Shown: positions 4,232-54,714 of the stretch, one piece after another
How positions within the stretch are numbered: the stretch's first letter is position 1
Layout of the letters: every line of letters begins with the position of its first letter
Assembly: GCF_002563655.1 (NCBI RefSeq)
Contig: NZ_PDIY01000001.1
Location: forward strand, 2,454,001 to 2,518,000
Direction of reading: 5' to 3'
From: Bacillus sp. es.034
Lineage (GTDB): Bacteria; Bacillota; Bacilli; Bacillales; Bacillaceae_B
Length of the DNA: 64,000 nucleotides
Notes under the pieces: generated by a model
Told to the model about the DNA's origin: nothing
Databases searched by the model: none
What the model saw: the letters and a program-made list of their open reading frames with translations, nothing else
Position numbers and translations under genes: made by a program

Positions 4232-4312
4232 GTTTACACATCAAAAACAGGTTAGGTATAGTAGGGAGAGGCACGTTGGAATTCAGGTAGGTTAAAAGAG
4301 TAAAAGAAAGTA

Positions 4313-5845
4313 GTGGATGTTGTGGATTTACGATATCATTATTTATTTTGGGAAATTGCCCACTATTTAGTGGAATATAAACAGTATCGGATCCTGAATC
4401 TTTCCCCCGACCAGGATGAAATTTGGTTGGAGAATTCAGGCATGAAAGAAGGAAACATCGTCCGGATCGTTCGAAAGGACCTGGATTGGGGTAACTGGGT
4501 CAAGAGGGATTTGGAATTGACCTCCATGAATGGAGAAAAGATCAGGAAAACCCTGAGGAAAAGGCAGCTTCACATAAAGAATCTCTACATATCCACTTAT
4601 CCACCCGTCGATGGGGATCCAAGTCTGTTCCTGGACCCGCTGAACCGTCATAAAACAACCATACAGCCTATTCTCCTTGATGGTGATGAAAGTGTGGAAA
4701 AGCTTAAAAGCCACCCACTCTTCCATGATGGAGATTGGGAGCTTCCCCCTGAAGTGTTGGAGGCAAATGTAGAGTGGATCAAAAATATGACCATGACGTC
4801 TTCCTCCAAACAAATTCAGCAAGAGAGACAGCTATTTGAGAGAGGGAAACCTTTTTTTACTTATCTCTTTATCGCCGTTCAAGTGATCATGTTCCTCATT
4901 CTTGAAATGAATGGAGGGAGTAAAGACCCGGAGACGCTCATTCAATTCGGTGCAAAATATAATCCTCTTATGATTGAAGGGGAATGGTGGCGCCTCGTCA
5001 CACCGATCTTCCTGCATATAGGATTACTGCATCTCTTGATGAACACACTGGCCCTTTATTATCTCGGAATGGCAGTGGAGAAAATGTTCGGCCGGATCCG
5101 GTTCGTTCTCATTTATATGCTGTCAGGAATCGCAGGTACGCTGGCAAGCTTCCTGTTTACATCCAATCTTTCAGCAGGGGCGAGTGGGGCGATCTTTGGC
5201 TGTTTCGGTGCTCTACTGTACTTTGGGGTATTACATCCAAATGTTTTCTTCCGCACCATGGGAACTAATATCATTGCGGTCATCTTATTGAATCTGGTCC
5301 TGGGATTCAGCCTTCCAGGCATTGACAACGCGGGCCATATCGGGGGTCTTATCGGAGGATTCCTTGCGGCAGGGATCGTCAGTCTGCCAAATGCCAACCG
5401 GCCGGTGCGGCAGCTCCTGTTTCTTCTTGGAAGCATTCTGTTAACAGGTATATTGGTATGGAATGGCATCGGAGACGATTCAAGTTCCTGGGACGTCGAT
5501 ACGGCGAATGGGGTCGCCCAGGAAAAGATATCGAATCAGGAGTGGGCAGAAGCAGAGGACCTTCTAACCCCTGTAGTGGAAGAAGGGGCTCCGAATGCAC
5601 AAACCTATTTCTATCTTTCATATGCTGAAATTAAGCAGAATAAATTAGAACCGGCAAAGAAGCATTTGAAAGCTGCACTAAAAGAAGACGATCGCTTTCA
5701 TGAAGCCCACTACAATCTTGCGTTGATATTGATCGATACCGGGGAAAGTGAAGAAGCTCTCCACCACGCAAAAAAAGCCTATGAATTAAATAGGCAGGAT
5801 AAGAATTATGAAAAACTTTATAAAGAGTTGCAAGGGAGCGATTAA
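4313..5845 (+). CDS. yqgP: Rhomboid intramembrane serine protease with TPR domain
   Basis: Membrane protease of the GlpG/YqgP family (also called GluP). The order is a soluble N-terminal domain (about 1-180), rhomboid helices (about 185-400), then TPR repeats to the C-terminus (NAQTYFYLSYAEIKQNK, HEAHYNLALILIDTGESEEA). The catalytic dyad is visible: Ser291 in GASGAIFG and His342 in NAGHIGG, three residues offset from the B. subtilis pair as I remember it. YqgP is implicated in processing the Mg transporter MgtE and in glucose export. GTG 4313 is a weakly supported start; another GTG nine bases on is possible. Its stop overlaps the stop of the convergent next gene by four bases. Confidence 0.95.
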   Translation: MDVVDLRYHYLFWEIAHYLVEYKQYRILNLSPDQDEIWLENSGMKEGNIVRIVRKDLDWGNWVKRDLELTSMNGEKIRKTLRKRQLHIKNLYISTYPPVDGDPSLFLDPLNRHKTTIQPILLDGDESVEKLKSHPLFHDGDWELPPEVLEANVEWIKNMTMTSSSKQIQQERQLFERGKPFFTYLFIAVQVIMFLILEMNGGSKDPETLIQFGAKYNPLMIEGEWWRLVTPIFLHIGLLHLLMNTLALYYLGMAVEKMFGRIRFVLIYMLSGIAGTLASFLFTSNLSAGASGAIFGCFGALLYFGVLHPNVFFRTMGTNIIAVILLNLVLGFSLPGIDNAGHIGGLIGGFLAAGIVSLPNANRPVRQLLFLLGSILLTGILVWNGIGDDSSSWDVDTANGVAQEKISNQEWAEAEDLLTPVVEEGAPNAQTYFYLSYAEIKQNKLEPAKKHLKAALKEDDRFHEAHYNLALILIDTGESEEALHHAKKAYELNRQDKNYEKLYKELQGSD

Positions 5846-26038: not shown

Positions 26039-26214
26039 CTGAAAAACATCTCCTTAATTCTTATAAAAATGATTGCTCAAAACTCGTATTTAATGGTAGG
26101 ATGAAAATAGATTTTCAATTGTTAGAAAAACTCGAAAATCCGAACATTCACATTTACAACATTTCTTCTGTATATTTCTAGTATGACCAATTGTTTCAAG
26201 GAATATTGGCGAAT

Positions 26215-26428
26215 GATGACAAGGGGAGAGACTGTGCGTACAGCGCCGAAGGAGCAAGCACTATAAGTGTGAATCTCTCAGGCAAAAAGACTCTTGTTGG
26301 ACGCAACTCTGGAGAGTGTTTCCGACACAGGAAACCACCAAAGGGGAAAGCCGTTCTTCGGTAAACTTTCAGGTGCAAGGACAGAGAAAACTTCTTTATG
26401 AAAAGGGGTTTTTCTGTCCTTTTTTCAT
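26215..26428 (+). ncRNA. Tandem glycine riboswitch with terminator platform
   Basis: Leader of the gcvT operon. The first aptamer (about 26223-26318) contains GCGCCGAAGGAGCAAG, ATCTCTCAGGCAAAAAGA and the closing GGAGAG. The second (about 26319-26390) contains ACCACCAAAGGGGAAAGC and CTTTCAGGTGCAAGGACAGAG. A hairpin AGGACAGAGAAAA / TTTTTCTGTCCT followed by T6 (about 26380-26427) is the terminator. Glycine binding would favour read-through and switch on glycine cleavage, as established for this class. Confidence 0.95.
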
Positions 26429-47012: not shown

Positions 47013-47035
47013 TGTGAATTCAGGAGGTGCCATAC

Positions 47036-47446
47036 ATGGCGGAAAATCAAAACCTTTTACAAATGTCTCACGGTAAAGACGGTCTTGGGAAAATTGAAAT
47101 CGCACCTGAAGTGATTGAAGTGATTGCAGGAATCGCCGCGTCAGAAGTCGAAGGCGTATCCCAAATGCGCGGAAACTTCGCAACAGGTGTCGTCGAGCGT
47201 CTTGGAAAGAAAAACCACGGTAAGGGTGTCAAAGTGGAGTTGGCCGAAGAAGGAATCATCGTGGATGTATACTGCATCATGAAATTCGGTGTAGCGATCC
47301 CGACGGTTGCTCAAAAAATCCAGGATAACATCCGTCAAGCCTTACTTAACATGACTGCGCTCGAAGCAGACGAAGTGAATGTTCATATTGTGGGCGTTCA
47401 ATTTGAAAACCAAAAGTTTGAAGCGGAAATTGAAGACGAAATGTAA
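47036..47446 (+). CDS. yqhY: Asp23/Gls24-family protein
   Basis: 136 aa with the Asp23 pattern (VIEVIAGIAASEVEGV, GVKVELAEEGIIVDVYCIMKFG). The family's role is not settled; YqhY co-occurs with accBC and in B. subtilis influences acetyl-CoA carboxylase activity. ATG 47036 follows AGGAGGTG; GTG 47027 is within that region. Confidence 0.94.
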   Translation: MAENQNLLQMSHGKDGLGKIEIAPEVIEVIAGIAASEVEGVSQMRGNFATGVVERLGKKNHGKGVKVELAEEGIIVDVYCIMKFGVAIPTVAQKIQDNIRQALLNMTALEADEVNVHIVGVQFENQKFEAEIEDEM

Positions 47447-50574: not shown

Positions 50575-51465
50575 ATGTATCCTCCCATTACATTGAAAGA
50601 GTTTCAACAGGAGCATGGGGAACTGATCACCAAACATATGGTTGAGACCGTAGATGGCCTAAAGATCCCCCTTGTATTAAAGGAGGCCATGATTTATTCC
50701 CTGCAGGCAGGTGGGAAAAGGATACGTCCCATCCTCCTGCTCTCAGTGATCAGGGCTTTCAATCAAGACACGGGGCTCGGACTTAATACTGCGTCCGCCC
50801 TTGAAATGATTCATACATATTCTTTGATCCACGATGACCTTCCTTCCATGGATGATGACGATTTAAGGCGAGGCAAGCCGACCAATCATAAGATGTTCGG
50901 GGAGGCAGCGGCGATTCTTGCAGGCGATGGTCTGCTGACATACAGCTTTCAGCTCATTGCAGAAGATACAGCCTTAACCAATGACCAAAAGGTGAAGCTC
51001 ATCTCCCTTCTCGCAAGGTGTGCCGGTCCAGAAGGAATGGTCGGCGGACAGGTTGCCGATATCGAAGGGGAGAATAAGCTGTTAACCGTACAGGAGCTTG
51101 AAAACATTCACGTTCATAAGACAGGAAAGTTACTCATATTCAGCGCATTGGCGGGCGGGATCATTTCAGGGGTGTCAGAGAGTGAACTTGAGCAGCTTGA
51201 ACGGTTTTCATACCACATCGGTCTCGCGTTCCAAATTCAGGATGATATCCTCGATATTGAAGGATCTGAAGAAATGATTGGTAAACCGGTGGGAAGCGAC
51301 GAGTCGAAACATAAGAGTACGTATCCGAGCCTTTTGACGATGAAAGGTGCGAAGGAGAAGCTTCAATTTCATCTGGACGAGGCATTGACGGCACTTACTG
51401 CCATGCCGGTGGACTCAAGTCTGCTGGCAGAAATTGCCCGATTGATTGTTTCACGGAATCATTAA
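50575..51465 (+). CDS. ispA: Farnesyl diphosphate synthase (geranyltranstransferase)
   Basis: Condenses IPP with DMAPP and GPP. First Asp-rich motif LIHDDLPSMDDDDLRRG, second FQIQDDILD, plus AGGKRIRP for substrate phosphate binding. 296 aa. Starts three bases after xseB; GAGGAGG precedes it. OLE RNA and oapA separate it from dxs, which it directly precedes with little else in B. subtilis. Confidence 0.96.
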   Translation: MYPPITLKEFQQEHGELITKHMVETVDGLKIPLVLKEAMIYSLQAGGKRIRPILLLSVIRAFNQDTGLGLNTASALEMIHTYSLIHDDLPSMDDDDLRRGKPTNHKMFGEAAAILAGDGLLTYSFQLIAEDTALTNDQKVKLISLLARCAGPEGMVGGQVADIEGENKLLTVQELENIHVHKTGKLLIFSALAGGIISGVSESELEQLERFSYHIGLAFQIQDDILDIEGSEEMIGKPVGSDESKHKSTYPSLLTMKGAKEKLQFHLDEALTALTAMPVDSSLLAEIARLIVSRNH

Positions 51466-51477
51466 AACATTCTATAT

Positions 51478-51507
51478 TTGAGCTAGTGTTTTAACATATG
51501 TTATAAT
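51478..51507 (+). promoter_or_regulatory. Strong sigma-A promoter of OLE RNA
   Basis: TTGAGC, 18-base spacer, TATAAT, with an extended -10 TG (ATGTTATAAT). Predicted start about 51514, right at the OLE boundary. Confidence 0.75.
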
Positions 51508-51513
51508 GTGATT

Positions 51514-52098
51514 AGAATAAATTTTGGGGTGGTGCAGTATTCTAGTCAGTCCACCAATCCTGAAGGTGGGCCTAAAAATCCACTAAAGGGCACATCGATG
51601 AAGTTCCTGGAATTGGCTTGAGGCGCCCAGCTTTGGGTCATATCTGGGAGTAAGGCTTGAGGGCGATCCACAATGGCATGTGGGCGTTGACCCGCGAGCC
51701 GCGGAGGCTTTGTTTCTTATGCTGGCATTAAGCATATGCAATAAGAACAAAGTATGAACCTGCGATGTGATGATTCACTAGCAGCGTAGCCTGCCTTGAG
51801 TGAAGAGAGAGGGGATTATGGTTACAGGGTACACATCAGTTGGCCATTGATATGTGCTTTTTCGCCCATATGAAATCCTCTTTGCAAAAGAGGCTAAGGA
51901 TTGCGTTAAGGACTGTTGAGGAAAACTCCTAGACTGTTCATATTCGGACATATATAGAGGATTATAGTGCGGACTAAGTGGTAATCCAGTCTAGCTTGTG
52001 GTGACGCGGCTAAGTCGGGTTTAATGGGAAACCGCCGGTATGGCAACATCCGGTACCTGATTGGGAAAACCTACTGGACCTAAGCTGCAATTTTTACT
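51514..52098 (+). ncRNA. ole: OLE RNA (ornate, large, extremophilic)
   Basis: A 585-base region without a credible frame, between ispA and an OapA gene, exactly the known OLE context. Predicted pairing is extensive. Ends pair (GTGCAG near 51531 with CTGCA near 52086). Internal stems include CTTTGTT-CTTAT / ATAAG-AACAAAG (51709-51754) and CACATCA / TGATATGTG (51830-51858). The 3' third with AAGTCGGGTTTAATGGGAAA and GGTATGGCAACATCCGG resembles conserved OLE sequence as I remember it. OLE forms a membrane RNP with OapA and contributes to cold, ethanol and Mg tolerance in Halalkalibacterium halodurans. Confidence 0.92.
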
Positions 52099-52167
52099 CT
52101 TTATATGACCCCCCAATTACATATAACCAAACTATTTACACAGTAGAAACGGTGTGTTTAAACGATA

Positions 52168-52800
52168 ATGAATGAAACAATGAAAAACTCAATAAAATGG
52201 AGTGTCAGCATTGCCGTTATCACATTTGTGTTAGCGGCTATTTTTTCAGTTACGTCCAATATGGTTCTCAATGGAGTCGCTTGGTATACAGGGCTCGTCG
52301 TCGTGTTGATCATCGTCTTCATCGGGATCTTTTTTGATATGCTGGGGATCGCTGCAACGGCGGCCGATGAAACCCCTTTTCATGCCATGGCGGCCAAAAA
52401 GGTGTACGGAGCGAAATATTCTATCAAAATTGTGCGGAATGCAGATCGATTCGCGAGCTTCTGTAACGATGTGATCGGTGACATTTCAGGGATCATAAGC
52501 GGAGCCGCAGCAGCCATTGTACTGGTCCAATTGGCGGTTTCCTTTCACCTTCAGGGAGGGTCCTTGAAGGAGTATATCGTTAGCGTAACCCTGACAAGTA
52601 TCATCGCTTCATTGACAGTCGGAGGCAAAGCGCTTGGAAAAACGTTTGCTATCACCTATTCTAAGGATATAATATTTAGAGTTGGTAAAGTTCTACAATT
52701 CCTTGAAGATCGATTTCATATCATCCTGATCAAAGATAAAAAAGACAAAAAAGATAAAAACAAGAAAAAAGGTTTTAAGCGTGAGAAACAAAATATTTAG
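52168..52800 (+). CDS. oapA: OLE-associated protein A
   Basis: 210-aa membrane protein with about four helices: two N-terminal (SVSIAVITFVLAAIFSV, LVVVLIIVFIGIFFDMLGI), then AAAAIVLVQLAV and ILTSIIAS-like segments. An Asp in GIFFDMLG, a DUF21-like AADETPFHAMAAKKVYGAK segment and a very Lys-rich C-terminal tail (KDKKDKKDKNKKK) fit an RNA-binding membrane protein. No clear Shine-Dalgarno precedes ATG 52168, and a stop codon lies two codons upstream, so no earlier in-frame start exists. It sits 70 bases after OLE RNA. Confidence 0.92.
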   Translation: MNETMKNSIKWSVSIAVITFVLAAIFSVTSNMVLNGVAWYTGLVVVLIIVFIGIFFDMLGIAATAADETPFHAMAAKKVYGAKYSIKIVRNADRFASFCNDVIGDISGIISGAAAAIVLVQLAVSFHLQGGSLKEYIVSVTLTSIIASLTVGGKALGKTFAITYSKDIIFRVGKVLQFLEDRFHIILIKDKKDKKDKNKKKGFKREKQNI

Positions 52801-52821
52801 TGATGAAAGTGAGTGGACCCC

Positions 52822-54714
52822 ATGGATCTATTATCAATAAAGGAGCCTTCTTTTCTAAAGAGCATGTCGAATGAACAATTAGAAGAGCTCAGCCAAGAGA
52901 TTCGCCAATTCCTGATCAAGAATCTTTCCAAAACAGGCGGTCATATTGGTCCAAACTTAGGGGTGGTCGAGTTAACCGTTGCCCTTCATAAGCATTTCTC
53001 AAGTCCAAAAGATAAAATCCTTTGGGATGTTGGTCACCAATCCTATGTCCATAAGATATTGACCGGCAGGGCCTGTCAGTTTGATACCCTCCGTCAGTAT
53101 AAGGGGTTATGCGGTTTTCCGAAACGAAATGAAAGTGAGCATGATGTATGGGAAACCGGTCATAGTTCCACTTCATTATCGGCAGCCATGGGTATGGCAA
53201 TCGCGAGGGACGTCAAGAAAGAAGATTCATATATTATCCCGGTGATCGGTGATGGTGCCTTGACTGGTGGAATGGCACTTGAAGCACTTAATCACATCGG
53301 TCATGAAAAGAAAGACATGATCGTTGTCCTGAATGACAATGAAATGTCCATCGCTCCAAATGTAGGGGCCCTTCACAATGTACTTGGCCGTTTGCGTACA
53401 GCCGGAAAATACAATTGGGTGAAGGATGAAATGGAATATATCCTTAAGCGCATCCCCGCTGTCGGCGGCAAATTAGCCAGTACAGCAGAACGGGTCAAGG
53501 ACAGCTTAAAGTATTTATTCGTTTCCGGAATGTTCTTTGAGGAGCTCGGTTTTACATACCTTGGACCGATCGATGGACATGATTATAATGATCTCGCTGA
53601 TAATATTCAATATGCGAAGAAAACCAAAGGCCCCGTCCTATTACACGTGATCACGAAAAAAGGAAAAGGGTTTCATCCTGCAGAGTCGGACAAAGAAGGG
53701 ACCTGGCATGGTACCGGACCTTACAAGATCGATACAGGGGATCTGATCAAGCCTGTGAACGCACCTCCTTCGTGGAGTGGACTCGTCAGTGAGACGGTCC
53801 GGAGGGTGGCCCGTGAGGATGAACGGATCGTGGCCATTACCCCGGCTATGCCGGTGGGCTCCAAACTTCTCGGCTTTGCTGAGGAATTCCCAGATCGGAT
53901 GTTCGACGTGGGGATTGCCGAGCAGCATGCCACCACGGTCGCTGCAGGTCTTGCCACCCAGGATATGAAACCGTTCTTAGCCATATACTCTACCTTCCTG
54001 CAACGGGCGTACGATCAGGTGGTTCACGATATTTGCCGCCAAAACTTGAACGTCTTCATCGGGATCGACCGTGCCGGATTGGTCGGAGCAGACGGGGAAA
54101 CCCATCAAGGGGTTTTCGATATCGCTTTTTTAAGACATTTACCGAATATGGTGATCATGATGCCGAAAGACGAGAATGAGGGACAGCACCTTGTCAATAC
54201 GGCAATTCAATATAATGACGGTCCCATCGCTCTGCGTTACCCACGCGGTAACGGGTATGGAGTACCGATGGACGGGGAACTTTCAACGATCCCGATTGGA
54301 ACGTGGGATATATTGAAACAGGGCACCGATGCAGCGATCCTGACGTTCGGAACGACGATCCCGATGGCCATGGAAGCGGCAGCAGACCTTGAGAAAAAAG
54401 GGCTTTCGGTTCGGGTCGTAAACGCACGTTTCATCAAACCGATGGATGAGATCATGCTGAAAAGGATCCTCGAAGAAGAGATGCCTGTTCTGACGATCGA
54501 AGAAGCCGTTCTTCAAGGTGGTTTTGGAAGCGGTGTCCTTGAATTCGCCCAGGAACAGGGCTTCCATGACGCCGTGATCGACCGCATCGGTATTCCTGAT
54601 TACTTCATCGAGCATGGAAGCGTGAAGGAATTATTGAATGAAATCGGCATGACCAAAGAAAACATAGTGGATCGCATTTTAACGATCACACCAAAAAAAC
54701 AAAAAAGGGCTTAA
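52822..54714 (+). CDS. dxs: 1-deoxy-D-xylulose-5-phosphate synthase
   Basis: First enzyme of the MEP isoprenoid pathway; thiamine diphosphate dependent. 630 aa. [15 protein letters not shown]-like N-terminus, ThDP motif [18 protein letters not shown] ... NDN, and transketolase segment [21 protein letters not shown] 52822 ([11 protein letters not shown]) matches B. subtilis; the GTG at 52813 is nine bases earlier and less likely. Stop overlaps the next gene. Confidence 0.97.

Follow-up and report, generated by a model that had tools for sequence, protein, structure and literature searches.

A sequence-fixed, terminator-like hairpin within oapA at the OLE RNA locus of Bacillus sp. es.034

We analysed a stretch of 64,000 nucleotides (nt) of Bacillus sp. 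es.034 (contig NZ_PDIY01000001.1; hereafter the window), which contains a locus of OLE RNA, which ranks with the largest structured RNAs of bacteria and has no established biochemical role, together with oapA, the gene of the membrane protein OapA. The order of genes and features is ispA, promoter, OLE, oapA, dxs, and the main subject here is a hairpin with a T-tract situated inside the coding sequence of oapA. The locus is a typical full-length OLE copy of a known class, as an earlier reading made from the letters alone (the sequence-only reading) had rightly proposed; the flanking position of ispA and dxs, also stated there, agrees with the annotation. By sequence comparison, the new part is a dual-coded, sequence-fixed, terminator-like hairpin in oapA, which had escaped the sequence-only reading and which survives the loss of the system in several lineages.

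50575..51465, forward strand: ispA (polyprenyl synthetase), upstream neighbour, by profile and open reading frame annotation
51478..51507, forward strand: sigma-A type promoter of OLE, TTGAGC-N18-TATAAT with TG before the -10 box, 10 of 12 consensus positions
51513..52128, forward strand: OLE RNA, full-length form, by the RF01071 model (positions 1-616, 514.2 bits) and covariation
52168..52800, forward strand: oapA, putatively CNNM-like membrane protein of 210 amino acids with a Lys-rich tail, by alignment and PF01595 (E 1.8e-4, under the cut-off)
52213..52238, forward strand: hairpin GCCGTTATCAC-ATTT-GTGTTAGCGGC in oapA codons 16-24, first transmembrane helix, by conservation and fold
52239..52246, forward strand: terminator-like T-tract TATTTTTT, adjoining the hairpin; tail positions 3-7 are all T in 84 of 84 matched loci
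52813..54714, forward strand: dxs, downstream neighbour, by profile and open reading frame annotation

The hairpin has the general form GCCGTTATCAC-N4-GTGTTAGCGGC, followed by the T-tract, and starts 45 nt after the oapA start codon and approximately 85 nt past the end of the OLE model match. Its fold energy is -14.1 kcal/mol (z = -4.36), none of 200 shuffles being as stable, and by sequence it has the make-up of an intrinsic terminator, the GC-rich stem running straight into the T-tract. It was observed in 84 of the 86 OLE-positive loci examined in the order and in all 46 loci of a set comprising 33 Rossellomorea and 13 named relatives. Among 40 loci of 31 further GTDB families (three of them, L266, L279 and L294, with an oapA 100% identical to that of named loci already counted), 38 loci from 30 families carried it with no more than a single change in 22 positions, while in a control of 120 shuffled loci there were never fewer than seven changes of 22.

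The hairpin is single in the window and in 800 kb of the genome, where the only other match to the motif (four changes) is this very site on the complementary strand, and each of the regions fetched from 36 congeners has it once. We hence rejected a repeated or mobile element, given this single occurrence, no match in the viral_contigs set and no plasmid match. Pairing of the hairpin arms with OLE was also rejected, as the best complements comprise 7 and 8 of 11 positions. In one locus (L265, genome G205) the hairpin-bearing oapA frame ends after 56 codons and may be frameshifted or mis-assembled; this locus has a second terminator-like hairpin upstream. In the literature consulted on OLE and OapA, intragenic terminators and attenuators we came upon no account of a hairpin or terminator within oapA, although the founding papers of 2006 and 2012 or subscription papers may describe one.

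The codons of the hairpin were compared in 31 oapA genes, one from the window and the others from 30 families (31 of 32 were used, L268 being left out as it has no hairpin; some frames of this set begin at a start codon that lies 5' of the likely start). Where the amino acid is the same, codon identity is 87.9% in the hairpin codons and rises to 96.4% when the two loop codons are left aside; the remainder of oapA has 40.5%, and the hairpin codons rank at the top of 195 sliding windows. An earlier set of 13 chosen representatives of 46 oapA genes yielded 90.8% against 40.5%. Three base pairs have both partners at third codon positions, and in the loci matching the pattern by which the pair table was collected (84 of 86, for which alone the table is valid) they are C-G in 84 of 84, T-A in 83 of 84 and C-G in 84 of 84; in the same loci the U-G wobble is always retained (84 of 84) and the U-U mismatch mostly so (78 of 84). 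When the stretch was recoded synonymously, 6 of 1000 recodings reached the energy of the hairpin plus T-tract. Thus, on the sequence evidence, the hairpin element is far more conserved than the coding of OapA requires, and it is almost certainly under selection as a nucleic acid.

The opposite possibility, that nothing is conserved here but the amino acids of OapA's first transmembrane helix, or that the pattern is due to chance, could draw on the peptide AVITxVLAAxF, which is well conserved in the order, and on the short open frames that still cross the hairpin in four genomes having no OLE (G011-G013 and G078), where a small peptide is possible. The difference in codon identity (0.96 against 0.41) and the top rank among the 195 windows argue against it, as does the locus L268, an OLE-positive one without the hairpin, where the equivalent stretch encodes A F I T F I L A A L F (translated by eye) with other codons, being freely recoded where a separate terminator exists. 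The hairpin is also retained in OLE-negative gaps with loops that break the frame. To judge from these sequences the amino-acid explanation is already contradicted, and we give it next to no credence.

The OLE-negative genomes are informative in this respect. OLE was found in 224 of 397 genomes sampled in the order, and the ispA-dxs junctions were examined in 20 listed genomes of the 173 without it. Between ispA and dxs they measure 98-590 bases, in which oapA has left remnants at most, and a cmscan search of the 20 loci yielded no OLE. A strict hairpin is present in the ispA-dxs gap of 8 of the 20 genomes, which make up six lineages, as G011-G013 form one clade. The old oapA frame is broken in G072, whose loop has 5 nt, and in G074, whose loop has 6 nt, and in G057 the hairpin is kept with an altered peptide.

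G011-G013 are three congeners without OLE and oapA whose genomes are 99-100% complete. In a genus tree of seven proteins (2509 columns) they form one clade with support 100, nested in OLE-positive species, the supports going outward being 100, 99, 71 and 90. Their junction has kept the hairpin and the OLE promoter (TTGAGG-N17-TATAAT) and contains a weak C-terminal remnant of oapA, with 2 of 2000 shuffles as good, and no remnant of OLE was found in these scars by cmscan at E up to 10. A reading of the N-terminal "oapA fossil" of these congeners as mere decayed coding sequence was rejected: the kept stretch is the hairpin, which occurs in OLE-negative genomes of other families as well. A second loss, in a genome of another family (G073), has left a longer oapA remnant with stops (37% identity over 119 positions, E 3.6e-12), and there is no hairpin in that junction.

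We consider the hairpin to be probably an intragenic intrinsic terminator or attenuator that ends the OLE transcript and limits the transcription of oapA-dxs, with a probability of roughly 0.7. Of the 86 OLE-positive loci, the two that lack it (L268 and L297) carry an ordinary terminator in the space separating OLE from oapA (-10.8 and -11.5 kcal/mol, respectively). Among the hairpin loci, in a comparison in which 47 of 50 loci could be anchored (L259, L260 and L286 were missed), an OLE-oapA terminator at -9 kcal/mol or better is found in 2 of 45, and this threshold was chosen after the earlier terminator data had been viewed, a third locus (L093) falling just short of it at -8.9.

That choice of threshold is one of several points that weigh against termination, in addition to the open frames already mentioned. 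The energy of the whole 81-nt stretch is matched by 285 of 1000 recodings, hence only the measure restricted to the hairpin plus T-tract stands out. A simple consensus terminator scan did not list the hairpin, whose stem contains a U-U mismatch, and the T-tract is interrupted. The motif is absent from all 15 OLE-positive loci of Alicyclobacillus, Thermoactinomyces, Clostridia and metagenome-assembled genomes (at least 6 of 22 positions changed), of which only six have a terminator near the end of OLE that beats 19 of 20 shuffles. Twelve of the 20 OLE-negative genomes have no strict hairpin, and in G072 the hairpin is present without the T-tract. Finally, by sequence, the fixed primary structure of both arms exceeds the needs of a plain terminator.

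The last point leads to the alternative that the hairpin is a sequence-specific RNA or DNA recognition element for a trans-acting factor, termination being secondary. Both arms are fixed in sequence, as the three pairs in which both partners are wobble positions are invariant in the 84 matched loci save for one T-G; other pairs would preserve both the peptide and the stem, yet these do not vary, and the U-G wobble and the U-U mismatch are retained too. The motif being single in the sampled genome, and the presence of the hairpin in six OLE-negative lineages, one of them lacking the T-tract, would also fit a recognition element. On the other side, the T-tract directly follows the stem in 84 of 84 matched OLE-positive loci and both OLE-positive loci without the hairpin carry an ordinary terminator, which together point to termination as the shared task, and no factor is known. 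We regard this alternative as rather unlikely.

Rather than a terminator, the hairpin could also be a place where an RNase (III, Y or P, for example) processes the RNA and so makes the 3' end of OLE. Processing of the OLE 3' end is reported in PMC11332333, and a stable hairpin approximately 85 nt past the model end would be suitably placed. Against this, the T-tract is kept though processing needs none, and the 8 of 20 OLE-negative genomes keep the hairpin with no OLE to process, so that such a role is improbable.

If the hairpin is a terminator, as we favour, transcription from the OLE promoter would run through OLE into oapA and there meet the hairpin and the T-tract. Most transcripts would end at approximately position 52246, yielding a precursor of approximately 730 nt that would be trimmed to OLE, while part of the polymerases would reach oapA and dxs; a single promoter could thus provide abundant OLE and scarce oapA-dxs mRNA. 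In runaway transcription, according to PMC13323073, which treats Rho and not intrinsic stops, the polymerase outpaces the ribosomes and the nascent mRNA is exposed; therefore, a stop inside a translated gene could act. As to the products, published work suggests that an OLE dimer anchored by OapA would help to manage stress and Mg2+, and OapA, with its weak similarity to CNNM, probably handles divalent ions. A bolder version is that a hitherto undescribed hairpin of fixed sequence, read by a factor and overlapping oapA, gates transcription from OLE into oapA-dxs and is needed enough to persist alone in several lineages after the system is lost. We put this forward tentatively, with the odds well against it.

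The RNA itself was identified by cmscan with the entire RF01071 model at 51513-52128 of the forward strand, the score being far above the gathering score of 50 bits (E 6.5e-148), and a whole-genome search yielded a single copy in the 4.51-Mb genome. The model had no match in 14 control genomes, and the phage collection yielded no OLE. Thus, the assignment made by the sequence-only reading is borne out over the full length; its estimate of about 585 nt was too short, as the model gives approximately 616 nt. One OLE copy elsewhere (L206, positions 4268-4932 of NZ_AP023421.1, Pusillibacter faecalis; 399.8 bits) lies on a 504-kb linear record filed as a plasmid, which also encodes an OapA-like protein, dxs, a TlyA-family gene, argR and recN, and may in fact be a secondary chromosome or a piece of the chromosome, and not a genuine plasmid.

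The structure was assessed in an alignment, made from sequence only, of 61 OLE RNAs (33 from Rossellomorea and 28 named). The features concerned are as follows.

51525..51532, forward strand: closing helix, 5' strand, pairing with 52109-52116
51547..51561, forward strand: 5' strands of P3 (51547-51552) and P3.1 (51555-51561), the proposed membrane-spanning stem
51842..51845, forward strand: palindrome GGCC in the apical loop of P9, the kissing-loop dimer contact called B3 in the cryo-electron microscopy papers
51897..51915, forward strand: 3' strands of P3.1 (51897-51903) and P3 (51910-51915), by pairing analysis
52109..52116, forward strand: closing helix, 3' strand, pairing with 51525-51532

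With the Rfam structure, 89.5% of the alignment cells are paired, compared to 40.2-43.5% when the partners are slid, and both sides have changed in 123 of 156 pairs. Hence, at the level of sequence, the Rfam consensus secondary structure of OLE is supported by covariation. The closing helix and P3/P3.1 are outside the Rfam structure, yet are supported by the alignment. In the closing helix 439 of 488 cells are paired, compared to 162-251 of 445-488 when the partners are slid by one or two columns, and 5 of 8 pairs have changed on both sides; two of the eight positions are unpaired in the window sequence. P3/P3.1 is paired in 90.2% of cells, with 12 of 13 pairs changed on both sides, and has at least 12 base pairs in 54 of 61 sequences, compared to 12.5% of shuffles. 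As proof of a membrane-spanning helix this length was rejected: helix 14 and others are equally constant, so that neither the length nor the pairing of P3/P3.1 discriminates.

Two structural details of the sequence-only reading fared less well than its main assignment. It had the ends of the RNA joined by pairing of GTGCAG with CTGCA, which is standard in 259 of 305 cells (84.9%) and is not the best pairing, because helix 15, in which CTGCA has an internal UGCGG as its partner, is paired in 99.3% of cells. The AT-rich stem that it placed at 51709-51754 does fold (-10.4 kcal/mol), but both of its helices belong to the less conserved part of the structure (79.6% and 41.0% paired).

In the columns of the P9 loop we observe GGCC in 52 of the 61 RNAs, AGCT in four, gaps in three and non-palindromic letters in two; PMC12286853 describes this palindrome as the kissing contact of the OLE dimer seen by cryo-electron microscopy. 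No CCTCC was found in P6 of the window, and 4 of the 61 OLE RNAs have CCTCC there. In Halalkalibacterium halodurans, P6 contains CCUCCU, an anti-Shine-Dalgarno mimic at the bS21 site, and in the mutants M1-M3 the exact P6 sequence is dispensable for binding (both PMC12054373). Therefore this mimicry is not general, being limited to so few RNAs, and, as the mutants do not need the exact sequence, we do not take it as defining OLE.

The best Pfam match of OapA is CNNM (21.7 bits, under the cut-off of 28.4), nothing scores above the cut-off, and there was no match among PDB sequences at E up to 10. OapA aligns with 21 OapA-like proteins encoded beside OLE elsewhere (37-90% identity), and the DxxxD motif (D101, D105) is invariant in all 22 aligned rows, from which L066, L077, L078, L083 and L084 are omitted owing to stops in the matched stretch. 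The suggestion that this gene is oapA is thus upheld. The other two partners were found as well, elsewhere in the genome. OapB adjoins infA and matches PDB entry 7k9b ("OLE-associated protein B"; E 7.5e-32), and OapC/YbxF is an 82-amino-acid frame with a match to 3v7e (E 1.3e-27) and Gly15 in its translation (read by eye). OapB is present in 35 of 36 genomes of the genus, including the three without OLE, the one miss being an 84% complete genome; the L7Ae family is present in 36 of 36, with two matches in 34. OLE was found in 33 of the 36, and OapA in the same 33. By sequence, then, this is an intact OLE ribonucleoprotein locus, with OLE, its promoter and oapA in place and with oapB and oapC elsewhere in the genome.

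The closest named loci belong to Rossellomorea (for example, 96% OapA identity with Rossellomorea vietnamensis), which by named relatives places the organism in this mesophilic genus. TTTGAG-N17-22-TAYAAT is found upstream of OLE in all 33 Rossellomorea OLE loci. At 47027-47446 of the window, between accC and nusB, there is an open reading frame that presumably is Asp23/YqhY-like; yqhY is among the high-ranking OLE neighbours (PMC12265935). In the neighbourhood, folD lies beside nusB/xseA in 32 of 36 Rossellomorea regions; no match was obtained in G014, G015 and G027 (L113, L114 and L126), and the fourth miss, G010, is a 4.2-kb contig. Farther away, at 26213-26386, a pair of glycine riboswitch aptamers (68.1 and 43 bits) stands side by side in the usual tandem arrangement.

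Compared with known systems, the locus resembles OLE/OapA of H. halodurans, the system of the Breaker laboratory, in the full-length RNA, its own promoter, oapA directly downstream and the ispA-dxs setting, as well as in OapB and OapC, the P9 palindrome, P3/P3.1 and an OapA with DxxxD and a weak similarity to CNNM. The H. halodurans OLE, as described in PMC9723947, has its own promoter, belongs to a large operon, is very abundant and is approximately 630 nt long. Unlike in H. halodurans, P6 of the window has no CCUCCU anti-Shine-Dalgarno match, and the host genus is mesophilic and carries two to four MpfA-type proteins as well. With intrinsic terminators and attenuators the hairpin shares the GC-rich stem and T-tract, a promoter upstream and a biosynthetic gene, dxs, downstream, whereas its position within the coding sequence of another gene and the primary sequence fixed in 30 of 31 further families are unlike the usual ones. 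OapA is weakly similar to the CNNM domain of MpfA/CorB (CNNM, CBS and CorC domains), whereas it has no CBS and CorC domains; an extra helix and the DxxxD motif relative to MpfA/CorB are reported in PMC11332333.

It may be that MpfA-type Mg2+ exporters replace the OLE complex, the expansion of this family compensating for the loss of OLE. CNNM proteins over the cut-off number seven in each of G011-G013, compared to two (21 genomes), three (11) or four (1) in the 33 OLE-positive congeners, one of the three in G033 being split in two pieces. This difference in Rossellomorea fits the anticorrelation of MpfA and OLE published in PMC11332333. A FastTree phylogeny that covers 20 of the 36 genomes with 66 proteins places the seven in several distinct clusters, one of which, a tandem pair, is exclusive to that clade. 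Speaking against replacement, the genus provides one loss event only and keeps MpfA-type proteins and OLE together. Outside the genus, counted in 32 chosen genomes, there is no rise in three other mixed genera, where OLE-negative genomes have 4 proteins vs 4 and 4 in relatives (g4), 2 vs 2 (g38) and 4 vs 3-8 (g39). In comparisons by family with other genera the counts are 2 vs 2 (f41), 2 vs 1-3 (f14), 4 vs 2 (f37) and 4 vs 0-3 (f35), one of the four proteins in G069 being a 213-amino-acid frame. A general expansion of MpfA after the loss of OLE was thus rejected, as it is not seen in these three genera, and replacement as such seems possible, the balance lying somewhat against it.

The nested OLE-negative clade of Rossellomorea, with a decayed locus and seven MpfA-type proteins, constitutes a natural loss for comparison with OLE-positive relatives, which bears on whether MpfA-type exporters can stand in for OLE. 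The oapA hairpin, in turn, predicts where OLE transcripts would end and how OLE, OapA and Dxs would be balanced, and perhaps the site of a specific factor. If the hairpin is indeed a switch read by such a factor, the biology of OLE would be tied to the control of isoprenoid synthesis via a shared, dual-coded switch.

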